Shown here piece by piece: positions 3,156-23,142 of a stretch of DNA of 64,000 nt; within the stretch, counting starts at the first letter, position 1; each line of letters starts with the position of its first letter. The DNA lies in the NCBI RefSeq assembly GCF_900115825.1, contig NZ_FOXW01000002.1:153795-217794 (forward strand). The letters are read 5' to 3'. Source of the DNA: Desemzia incerta. Lineage in GTDB: Bacteria; Bacillota; Bacilli; Lactobacillales; Carnobacteriaceae. The notes under the pieces are model-generated. The model was not told where the DNA came from and made no database searches. It saw only the letters and a program-made list of their open reading frames with translations. A program made the translations under genes and the position numbers.

Positions 3156-3892
3156 ACTAAACGACCTTCCTCTTTAGTCAATTCAATATAAATCTCGTCT
3201 AAGTTTGCTTCAGGCATTTCAAATGTTTGTCTCAAATCTTCTAATGATCCAGCCGCTCGTACTTTTCCTTCATGGAGAATAATGAATCCATCACAGTAAC
3301 GTTCAGCAGTCGCTAAGATATGGGTGGACATTAAGATAGATGCCCCGGCTTCTTTCTTTTCTTGCATCAATTCCAATAAGGCGTGGATCGCTAACGGATC
3401 AAGACCTAAAAAAGGCTCGTCAATAATATACAAACTAGGTTCTACCAAGAAAGCACAAACGATCATTACTTTCTGCTTCATTCCTTTAGAAAAGTTCGCA
3501 GGAAACCAGTCCAGTTTCTTTTCTAAACGAAACGTTTTTAATAAGTAGTCTGCTCGCTTCATCGCTTCTTCCATTGGAAGATCATAAGCCATAGCCGTCA
3601 CTTCAATATGTTCTTTTAAAGTCAATTCTTCATATAAGGCGGGTGTTTCTGGGACATAACCGAATTTTTTTCGATAATCAGAAGCACTTTCTTTAATGGT
3701 CAGCTGGTCTATCTTGATCTCTCCTTTGAAAGGATCCATTAAACCGATAATGTGTTTTAAAGTAGTACTTTTACCGGCCCCATTCAGTCCAATTAACCCA
3801 ATCAATTGACCGTTGCCAATTTCAAATGATACATCTTTTAATACCGGAAACTGGTTGTACCCTCCAGTTACGTTTGTGACTTCTAAACTCAT
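3152..3892 (-). CDS. ecsA: ABC transporter ATP-binding protein EcsA
   Basis: ATPase subunit of the Ecs transporter. Over 246 residues it shows Walker A GLNGAGKST (35-43), signature FSKGMKQK (134-141, a normal variant of LSGGQ in this family), Walker B LYIIDEP (154-160) and the switch His191. Start ATG follows AGGAGG with 7 nt spacing. It is the first gene of the ecsAB operon and is divergent from hit, a classic Firmicutes arrangement. The upstream region carries an extended -10 element on this strand (3925-3933). Confidence 0.95.
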   Translation of the reverse strand: MSLEVTNVTGGYNQFPVLKDVSFEIGNGQLIGLIGLNGAGKSTTLKHIIGLMDPFKGEIKIDQLTIKESASDYRKKFGYVPETPALYEELTLKEHIEVTAMAYDLPMEEAMKRADYLLKTFRLEKKLDWFPANFSKGMKQKVMIVCAFLVEPSLYIIDEPFLGLDPLAIHALLELMQEKKEAGASILMSTHILATAERYCDGFIILHEGKVRAAGSLEDLRQTFEMPEANLDEIYIELTKEEGRLV

Positions 3893-20998: not shown

Positions 20999-21604
20999 TT
21001 ACGAAAGCATTTTTAGCATCATTTCAATAATATCGTCTAAACCTACATTGCTTTCGTTGGTGTGTTCCATATATTCTTTTCTGACATTATCCATCAATAA
21101 AGTTAAGGTCGCTGCATTGAAAATGTACACAATGGTCTCGTATTCCTGTTCACTGATATTGTGTTCTGAAGAAAAAGATTTTAATTTCTTGCATAATGAG
21201 TTTTTGACATAATCTTCTTTATAATTAGAAATAGATTTCATATTTTCATTACCGACTTCTTTGACTGTTCCGATAACGATCGTACGATGACGATTGTACA
21301 TTTCGACAATAAAGCGTCCTGCTTTTCTCATTAAATCTTCTGTGTTGTCAAAATCGAGACTGAAAAACTCATCTACTTCATTTGTAATTTGAGCGGTATG
21401 TTGTTTATACGCTGTATCGATCAATAGTTGCTTTGAGGTGAAGTTTTTGAAAATCGTCGTTTCATTTACTCCAGCCTGATCTGCAATTTTTTTGGTGGTC
21501 GTGCTTTTATAGCCAACATGCGATATTAAATCCAATGCTGCATCAACGATTTTTTGTTGAGTTTTAGTTAATTTATTAATATCGATGGGATGTAGTTCTT
21601 TCAC
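20999..21604 (-). CDS. TetR/AcrR family transcriptional regulator
   Basis: DNA-binding repressor-type protein with a TetR helix-turn-helix at about 13-58 (ALDLISHVGYKSTTTKKI and VNETTIFKNFTSKQLL). The C-terminal ligand domain is helical and not assignable. I chose a GTG start at 21604 (then KELHPIDIN, 201 residues) because GGAGG lies exactly 8 nt upstream; the ATG at 21619 has no clear site and overlaps it. It is inserted between queA and tgt, which are normally adjacent, and is 36 nt from tgt, so co-transcription with tgt is likely. Its targets are unknown. Confidence 0.85.
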   Translation of the reverse strand: MKELHPIDINKLTKTQQKIVDAALDLISHVGYKSTTTKKIADQAGVNETTIFKNFTSKQLLIDTAYKQHTAQITNEVDEFFSLDFDNTEDLMRKAGRFIVEMYNRHRTIVIGTVKEVGNENMKSISNYKEDYVKNSLCKKLKSFSSEHNISEQEYETIVYIFNAATLTLLMDNVRKEYMEHTNESNVGLDDIIEMMLKMLS

Positions 21605-21764
21605 TTCAAAAGCCTCCATATCTTATCAGCTTATCTTCATGTAAAATGCTGACTCAATGCTATATATTATCATACTTTGATTTTTAACTAAAGTACATTT
21701 GGTATTTTTCATTTTTTACTGTCTAAAAAAATGTCAAAATTTGTTAATAAGCGAGATATTTAAC

Positions 21765-21793
21765 TAGCAAACGCTTTCAAGTTGTGTTATTCT
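21765..21793 (+). promoter_or_regulatory. Promoter of the candidate small RNA
   Basis: Extended -10 TGT-TATTCT (TATTCT at 21788-21793) with a weak -35 TAGCAA (21765-21770) and a 17-nt spacer. The predicted start is near 21800, right before the 5' arm of the end-to-end stem. Confidence 0.5.
21766..21780 (-). promoter_or_regulatory. Catabolite-responsive element (cre, CcpA site)
   Basis: The minus strand reads TTGAAAGCGTTTGCT, matching every fixed position of the cre consensus WTGNAANCGNWNNCW. It overlaps the -35 hexamer and the spacer of the plus-strand promoter at 21765-21793, the classical place for repression. It is about 160 nt upstream of tetR on the other side. Confidence 0.65.
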
Positions 21794-21799
21794 ATAAGT

Positions 21800-22107
21800 G
21801 GGAAGAGGAATGCAACATGGAAGATAGAGTTAGATGTTTAGTTTAACAGCTTTTGGAACATTCTTTTTGAACAACTGATTTTCAGATTCAAGAAAAGATC
21901 GATTCGAATACCAGTTTTGGAACACAGATTATGAAGGTGTTTAAAAAAATTTCTACAATGAGCAAAGTGCATGAACCGAAAAACTTTTAGATTAACCGAA
22001 CCAATGTTTAACATGAGTATTTAAAACTTGATTCAACACCCTCTATCTTCCTAATTCCTCTGTAAACCAATAGAAGTTGGCCGCATCATCAGCCAACTTC
22101 TATTTTT
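21800..22107 (+). ncRNA. Candidate catabolite-controlled structured small RNA
   Basis: A 490-nt gene-free gap holds what looks like a complete plus-strand RNA gene. It has a promoter with an overlapping cre site, and its two ends are complementary over long range: AGAGGAAT (21804-21811) pairs with ATTCCTCT (22054-22061), and GGAAGATAGAG (21819-21829) pairs with CTCTATCTTCC (22041-22051). An intrinsic terminator follows (22070-22107). The interior has small hairpins and direct repeats (TTTTGGAACA twice, AACCGAA twice). The long closing stem recalls 6S RNA, but length (about 260 nt before the terminator) and lack of recognisable 6S core leave the family open. A 19-codon frame lies inside (21932-21991). 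Confidence 0.6.
22070..22107 (+). terminator. Terminator of the candidate small RNA, facing queA
   Basis: ATAGAAGTTGGC (22070-22081) pairs perfectly with GCCAACTTCTAT (22092-22103) and is followed by TTTTT on the plus strand. On the minus strand there is no T run, so it primarily serves the plus-strand RNA, though it may also stop queA transcripts. Confidence 0.85.
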
Positions 22108-22110
22108 GTT

Positions 22111-23142
22111 TTATTTCACGAACATAGCATCTCCAAAGCTGAAGAAACGGTATTTTTCATTAACCGCATGCTCATAGGCAGAAAGGACATGATCTCTTCC
22201 AGCAAAAGCACTAACTAACATCACTAATGTTGATTTAGGCAAATGGAAGTTGGTAGAGAAAGCTTCTACTACTTTAAATTGATAACCCGGGGCAATAAAA
22301 ATATCAGTCCAACCACTGTCTGCTTTGATTTCTCCATCAAATTTCGTACCGATCGTTTCGAGTGTTCGAATAGAAGTAGTCCCAACAGCTACGATTCTGC
22401 CTCCATTAGCTCGTACTTGATTTAATTTGTCTGCTGCTTCTTGGGTTAAACGATAAAACTCTGCATGCATTTTATGTTCTTCAATATTGTCTACGCTGAC
22501 TGGTCTAAAAGTGCCTAGTCCAACGTGCAATGTCAAGAAGACCAATTCTACACCTTTAGCTTTGATTTGTTCCAACAACTCAGGAGTGAAATGCAATCCT
22601 GCGGTTGGTGCAGCTGCAGAACCATTTTCTTTTGCATAAACCGTTTGATAGCGTTCTTTATCTTCCAGTTTTTCTTTAATGTACGGCGGTAAAGGCATTT
22701 CACCCAAAGATTCCAACACTTCCAAGAAAATCCCTTCGTAAGAAAATTCTACGATTCGACCTCCATGTTCTAATTCTTCTTTTACTTCTGCTTTCAGTCG
22801 GCCGTCTCCGAAATGGATGATTGTCCCTTTTTTAGCTTTTTTAGCAGATTTGATCAATGTTTCCCATTGATCTCCTTCGATATTTTTCAATAATAACACT
22901 TCTAAATGTCCGCCAGTATCCGGTTTGACTCCGTATAAACGTGCAGGAAGCACTCTTGTATCATTCATGACAAGAGCGTCCCCTGGGTTCAACTCATCTA
23001 TGATAGAAGTAAAATGAGTATCTTTCATCTTTCCGGTTTCTTTGTCCAGCACCAATAATTTCGAGCTTGAACGATCAGCTAACGGCGTTTGTGCAATCAA
23101 TTCTTCCGGTAAATCAAAATCAAAATCTTCTGTTGTTAACAT
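22111..23142 (-). CDS. queA: S-adenosylmethionine:tRNA ribosyltransferase-isomerase
   Basis: Transfers and isomerises the ribosyl moiety of SAM onto preQ1-tRNA to form epoxyqueuosine. Conserved segments include [15 protein letters not shown] near the N-terminus, [16 protein letters not shown] and TTSIRTLE. Length of 343 is normal. AGGAG is 8 nt from the ATG at 23142 and only 2 nt from the in-frame ATG at 23148, so I favour the former. It lies about 16 nt after ruvB in a ruvA-ruvB-queA operon. Confidence 0.96.

Follow-up and report, generated by a model that had tools for sequence, protein, structure and literature searches.

A conserved small RNA gene beside queA in Desemzia incerta, a probable CcpA-controlled counterpart of the enterococcal RNAs Ern0160 and Ref19C

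Results

The stretch of DNA analysed here, referred to as the window, comprises 64,000 nucleotides of contig NZ_FOXW01000002.1 of Desemzia incerta. It contains a gap of 491 bases between two minus-strand genes, one coding for a TetR-family regulator (PF00440; 20999-21619) and the other being queA (PF02547; 22111-23148). A small RNA gene lies in this gap at positions 21798-22107 of the plus strand, with tetR as a divergent neighbour outside the RNA gene and queA as a convergent neighbour, which served as synteny anchor. The RNA measures about 310 nt with its terminator and about 270 nt without it; a preliminary description had given about 260 nt. The start at 21798 was set by analogy with the relative in E. 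faecalis, where the Rfam family RF02639 begins at position 1538 of locus L011, 5 nt past a TATTCT hexamer (1528-1533).

When folded, the segment 21800-22107 reached -73.4 kcal/mol (z -3.85), and none of 100 shuffled sequences folded as well. Its ends are closed by a helix in two parts, whose complementary arms are exactly those noted when the sequence was first read. The outer helix of 8 pairs (21804-21811 with 22054-22061; model pair probabilities 0.96-1.00) is backed by the fold, the pair probabilities and the fit across copies, and the inner helix of 11 pairs (21819-21829 with 22041-22051; 0.87-1.00) is the strongly covarying part. Between them, a bulge of 7 nt on the 5' side (21812-21818) stands opposite 2 nt (22052-22053). 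The RNA ends in an intrinsic terminator (22069-22107), which faces queA and sits just beyond the end of this convergent gene; it consists of a perfect stem (22069-22081 with 22092-22104), a loop of 10 nt and a T run. The stem had rightly been called perfect, and its length is 13 pairs rather than the 12 reported. A simple consensus scan reported neither this terminator nor the promoter of the gene, since the -35 hexamer TAGCAA is poor and the terminator loop of 10 exceeds the limit of 8 used; the scan returned a single promoter-like site, on the minus strand, and shuffled sequences gave more.

Two other identities were rejected. An mRNA leader is excluded because queA is convergent, as had been recognised at the outset. 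As for a small-protein gene, no open reading frame preceded by a Shine-Dalgarno-like sequence and at least 12 codons long is present in either of the two Desemzia copies, and such a frame was found in only 3 of 28 copies (G005, E. faecalis and E. sp. MJM12), with unrelated sequences, while frames lacking a Shine-Dalgarno sequence occur in all copies. Positions 21798-22107 are a real, free-standing and unannotated sRNA gene with paired ends and a promoter and terminator of its own, as the preliminary description had held.

The promoter (21765-21793, plus strand) is of the extended -10 type and is conserved in relatives. It is made up of the -35 hexamer TAGCAA (21765-21770), a spacer of 17 nt and the -10 hexamer TATTCT (21788-21793), with TG at 21785-21786. 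Over the -35 hexamer and the spacer lies a cre, the operator of CcpA (21766-21780), which in the minus-strand reading has one mismatch to the consensus WTGWAARCGYWWWCW as printed in PMC8262876 and PMC3198936. All 29 copies scored carry at their promoter a cre with no more than 2 mismatches, compared with 0.8% of 5762 random windows, a count that is partly circular because 10 of the copies had been found by patterns including the cre, another 16 having been gathered by their position beside queA and 3 otherwise. The Desemzia genome contains ccpA (556 bits; cut-off 442.35). A cre placed over the -35 region is expected to repress. Judging from its promoter sequence, the Desemzia sRNA gene is probably under the control of CcpA and switched off by sugar.

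Relatives were looked for at several distances. A DNA search of 59 genomes gave matches in 10, namely the genome itself, one of the same genus over the full length (77%), six of one genus with matches confined to the vicinity of the terminator, and two of another with matches confined to the promoter region. Within the GTDB family, copies were collected by their position after queA and assessed both by pattern matching and by eye. Of the 18 genomes, 17 gave a QueA match, and in 16 of these the sequence that follows queA combines a promoter of this type with an RNA whose ends are complementary and with a terminator. In G006 the RNA lies about 2.4 kb from queA, and in G015 it is intact although there is no QueA match. 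All 18 genomes of the family therefore carry an equivalent RNA, and 16 have it immediately next to queA. The G015 locus (L053) gave no QueA match at E <= 1e-50, and its queA region appears degenerate by eye.

Outside the family, a scan of named genomes was made in which 80 of 183 queA loci were kept. An equivalent was present at 8 of the 10 Enterococcus-named loci (L060, L061, L062, L064, L065, L067, L069 and L070) and was not seen at the other two (L063 and L068). In E. sp. MJM12 the RNA is located 1.3 kb from queA. An equivalent also occurs in Lactobacillus selangorensis (L109). The Desemzia RNA is thus a conserved sRNA gene, and the term orphan, under which it was first described, no longer applies to it. 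About 600 bases beside queA were inspected at each of seven further loci, those of Tetragenococcus (L066), an Enterococcaceae MAG (L071), Atopococcus (L072), Ligilactobacillus (L074), Alkalibacterium (L077), Trichococcus (L078) and Granulicatella (L115), and no such RNA was seen there, a statement that concerns the vicinity of queA and not the whole genome. In Loigolactobacillus jiayinensis (L100) an equivalent is doubtful: next to queA, the reverse strand near 3729 has paired ends and a cre-like promoter, and no bulged two-part helix. This element is possibly a distant relative of the RNA. In place of the usual lone terminator hairpin, the segment directly past the 3' arm of the RNA at the loci of E. 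sp. RIT-PI-f (L067) and E. gallinarum (L069) is longer and encloses a second hairpin ahead of queA.

An automatic finder applied to the 80 loci returned 29 rows, of which 9 were accepted, the doubtful L100 among them, and it missed L062, L065 and L067. Some of the rejected rows pair equally well by their arms alone, so that arm pairing is unspecific when place and promoter are disregarded. The promoter pattern with at most 3 mismatches matched 118 of 395 genomes of the order, most of these matches being doubtless unrelated. In family f2, a hand count of 46 match rows gave 7 within 1.1 kb of queA and 7 at 4.5-7.9 kb, all facing queA, where by an arithmetic estimate random scatter would put less than 1 near queA; the 7 distant matches are not independent, 6 of them coming from one genus, and G382 (E. 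durans) alone was inspected individually. Two further matches in f2 lie 9.2 kb from queA.

At gathering score no Rfam family matches the RNA. Searching 21500-22300 with Rfam, RF02639 included, at E <= 10 returned only weak rows, none of them RF02639, which were taken as chance (best E 0.32; FsrA with E 5 over the terminator). The Rfam search proposed in the preliminary description has thus given no significant match at the locus. Applied to 19 loci of relatives (12, and 7 more at E <= 0.1), RF02639 matched L011 alone, with 585 bits, and the model therefore misses the other Enterococcus copies. A mobile origin was rejected: there was no match among 72,556 plasmid records and a single one among 50,697 phage records, L011, which is apparently a host contig. 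This record (OR846620.1, 1861-4914) is labelled 'Enterococcus phage Efs 1-1-1' and is unverified and unannotated. The stretch looks like host chromosome, since the terminal part of queA lies in it together with a complete RF02639 sRNA.

The E. faecalis-type copy in L011 is the known sRNA Ref19C, or EF0869_EF0871, represented in Rfam as RF02639 ('EF0869_EF0870'). Ref19C and the Desemzia RNA both adjoin queA in convergent orientation, have a cre and an extended -10 promoter, and share the outer helix with its 5' bulge, the covarying inner helix and the terminator. They differ in length (474 nt in Rfam versus about 310 nt in Desemzia), the RF02639 model is blind to the Desemzia RNA, and there is no similarity between the bodies; in the E. 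faecalis record, the next gene on the same strand codes for a Cro/CI-type regulator. The second studied relative is Ern0160 (sRNA_0160) of E. faecium, reported to lie between queA and mgtA, to contain no ORF and to have 24% identity to Ref19C over a limited region (PMC12870237). We compared it by way of the gene order in E. durans rather than through an E. faecium sequence. In E. durans the order is queA - RNA - P-type ATPase, as reported for Ern0160, and there is no tetR. Like the Desemzia RNA, Ern0160 is a single RNA of a few hundred nucleotides beside queA without an ORF; unlike it, it measures 362-370 nt, its body sequence is different and it has LysM targets, for which a pairing test in Desemzia showed no signal with any of the 4 LysM ORFs found there (z -1.6 to +1.0 versus shuffled RNAs).

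Both enterococcal RNAs have been followed during growth. In PMC3166299, the values given for the E. faecalis RNA with and without O2 are 196 and 374 for exponential phase and 7780 and 119683 for early stationary phase; those for urine and serum are 5974 and 30293. A Northern blot is also reported to have shown it in cells starved for 24 h. The E. faecium RNA, sRNA_0160, accumulates in later growth and drops 11-fold with daptomycin (PMC5593968). Ern0160 directly pairs with and represses two LysM mRNAs, and its overexpression lowered genes of carbohydrate use and transport most significantly (both PMC12870237). Its deletion changed only 13 genes, none of them in common with overexpression. The overexpression plasmid had the native promoter and hence brought in extra copies of the cre. 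Titration of CcpA by these copies should raise the expression of sugar genes; as these genes fell, an effect of the RNA itself would fit better. CcpA is unmentioned in the main texts of PMC12870237, PMC8631354, PMC5593968, PMC7724050 and PMC10117718, and among the matches listed in a search of the open-licence literature we found no report of CcpA control of Ern0160 or Ref19C.

The conservation and the compensatory stem changes that the preliminary description had proposed to look for were both found. In the copies, the closing helix has the same two parts, an outer box and an inner helix separated by a 5' bulge, which is 6-11 nt long in 27 of 28 copies. The outer box reads AGAGAG/CTCTCT in most of the family, AGGAAT/ATTCCT in Desemzia and GGAAGG/CCTTCC in most Enterococcus, and the sequence of the inner helix varies by genus and yet pairs. 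Between the two Desemzia copies, 2 inner pairs are changed on both sides and 1 is broken. An RNAalifold run on a MAFFT alignment of 19 sequences gave a single hairpin, in the region of the terminator, the 3' arms being misaligned, so we fitted the helix to each sequence separately. Of the native copies, 25 of 28 formed at least 16 of 17 pairs, versus 15% of 626 refitted swaps in which the 3' arm came from another genus, the latter figure being a yardstick and not a probability, as the sequences are related. The copies below 16 of 17 pairs were two of the E. gallinarum group and that of L. selangorensis. Best fits to shuffled arms reached 16 of 17 pairs at most, with a mean of 13.3 (n=230). In swaps with fixed register, 50% of positions were paired versus 240 of 253 in native copies; such swaps flatter the native fit, and the refitted ones are preferred. 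Duplex energies computed without fitting overlap, with means of -26.8 kcal/mol for native and -18.4 kcal/mol for swapped arms, and in 12 of 29 copies at least one swapped duplex is as strong as the native one. L100, whose ends are unclear, was left out of the helix counts and kept in the cre count. Across 28 copies the closing helix covaries, which goes beyond what a single fold can show.

The body of the RNA was compared by profile searches from which promoter and terminator had been removed. These profiles link three genera of the family, with E values of 2e-18 to 4e-10 in one direction and 2e-16 to 2e-5 in the other. Body profiles built without Desemzia gave no match in Desemzia, nor was there one in G005, G006 or L. 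selangorensis, and the Enterococcus profile reached E 0.43 (G017), 2.2 (G009) and 8.3 (G013) in the family, where the best shuffled decoy had E 0.27, so that no trustworthy body similarity links the family with Enterococcus. A 14-nt motif of the Enterococcus copies recurs in the same three genera, 84-98 nt from the start as compared with 71-81 nt in Enterococcus; for 11 of 14 copies no more than 9 of 400 shuffled sequences were as good, and for the other 3 copies 34-42 were. In Desemzia, the site resembling this Enterococcus/Carnobacteriaceae motif (RTACAAGWTTCACC-like; 21879-21892, plus strand) is degenerate and not significant, 249 and 209 of 400 shuffles being as good in the two copies; the motif is not significant in G005, G006 and L. 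selangorensis either. A block of 30 nt in the interior (21843-21872, plus strand) has the same letters in both Desemzia copies, an identity far above that of the remaining interior, and is a candidate functional interior that may bind targets.

Discussion

The gene anatomy, the conservation, the covarying helix and the cre on the promoter described here were all read from DNA sequence, and taken together with the work on enterococci they suggest that the Desemzia RNA is a CcpA-repressed, base-pairing sRNA of sugar starvation and a diverged counterpart of Ern0160 and Ref19C. We give this reading a probability of about 0.68. Among the options named in the preliminary description, which included a base-pairing sRNA, this is the one best supported. 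The RNA would be a strongly diverged counterpart, invisible to Rfam, and the suggestion of a new family holds in so far as no Rfam model detects the RNA, and gives way in so far as a counterpart has already been studied in Enterococcus. Since the body sequences are unlike, common descent with Ern0160 and Ref19C is argued from place, orientation, promoter, operator and helix. The Desemzia RNA was not classed as a member of RF02639, as neither the Rfam model nor the comparison of bodies places it there.

We infer the following course of events. In the presence of a preferred sugar, CcpA together with P-Ser-HPr would sit on the cre over the -35 region and keep RNA polymerase off the promoter. Once the sugar is exhausted, repression would be lifted and the RNA would accumulate, which would agree with the late-growth expression shown by others in Enterococcus. 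The closing helix joins the two ends of the RNA, and in doing so it probably guards the 5' end against nucleases that act there and keeps the interior as a separate part. This interior would pair with mRNAs, mostly repressing them, as has been shown by others in Enterococcus for the LysM mRNAs, and in this way sugar uptake and some wall functions may be lowered as growth stops; all targets in Desemzia are putative. RsaI of Staphylococcus aureus and SR1 of Bacillus subtilis are CcpA-controlled sRNAs of other Gram-positive bacteria. The Desemzia RNA would act like them, as an RNA arm of carbon catabolite control, while its neighbourhood and layout differ from theirs.

The same gene under the same CcpA control might act mainly by binding a protein, as a sponge or scaffold, which we consider unlikely. 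A helix kept by compensatory change while interiors differ would suit an RNA that is read by its shape, and part of Ern0160 sediments in heavier fractions in E. faecium (PMC12870237). Against this stand the direct, sequence-specific pairing of Ern0160 with LysM mRNAs and the finding that the RNA-binding proteins examined are unlike Ern0160 in sedimentation (both PMC12870237). Moreover, motifs are retained in the interiors within genera, which suggests that parts of the interior are read by sequence.

Somewhat less probable still is that the Desemzia RNA is independent of the enterococcal ones, having arisen or been rebuilt at the same place, in which case only the promoter region, the position of the terminator and the general layout with paired ends would be common to them and the function need not be. 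The absence of body similarity, the failure of RF02639 and the non-significant motif are what such an origin would lead one to expect. Against it stand the same strand and place beside queA, the cre with the extended -10 promoter, the succession of outer helix, 5' bulge and inner helix, and the chain of intermediate genera in the family that carry the RNA too.

A purely local element, which would serve queA as an antisense RNA or terminator or else regulate tetR, is very improbable. The terminator does face queA and the start is divergent from tetR, yet the RNA is intact in G015, where QueA has no match, it is found 2.4 kb (G006) and 1.3 kb (E. sp. MJM12) away from queA, and in E. durans a P-type ATPase gene takes the place of tetR. 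Finally, an identity with 6S RNA (RF00013), as first suggested, is hardly credible, for in spite of the large interior and the ends joined by a long stem there is no 6S match at 21798-22107, and the 6S RNA of this genome was found at another locus (G000:C8:28368-28559, L143; 78.9 bits, gathering score 46.4).

Beyond the diverged, CcpA-repressed counterpart proposed for Desemzia, there is about an even chance that all these genes are one old carbon-catabolite sRNA beside queA under CcpA, spread over Enterococcaceae, Carnobacteriaceae and at least one Lactobacillaceae locus, with a helix kept by compensatory change and an interior rewritten in each genus. If this is true, a fixed switch and a fixed chassis would carry exchangeable target regions, and the enterococcal virulence sRNA Ern0160 would be a regulator of sugar starvation first. 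Work on Ern0160 and Ref19C has so far treated them as RNAs of stress and virulence in two enterococcal species; both are known regulators of late growth, and one of them moderates virulence. The papers examined name no regulator of their promoters and describe the match between the two as partial. The cre promoter and the covarying helix, which they have in common with Carnobacteriaceae, would provide them with one gene, one history and one testable signal, the sugar supply. Control by CcpA and sugar would explain the late-growth expression and would join the control of enterococcal colonisation and virulence to carbon catabolite repression. Among the copies scanned, Rfam recognises only the E. 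faecalis version, and the copies collected here supply sequences for a family model.

Upstream of the neighbouring tetR gene, an inverted repeat (ACTTT...AAAGT, 21674-21694) was noticed, which is also present in Desemzia sp. RIT 804 and is possibly an operator for the TetR regulator.
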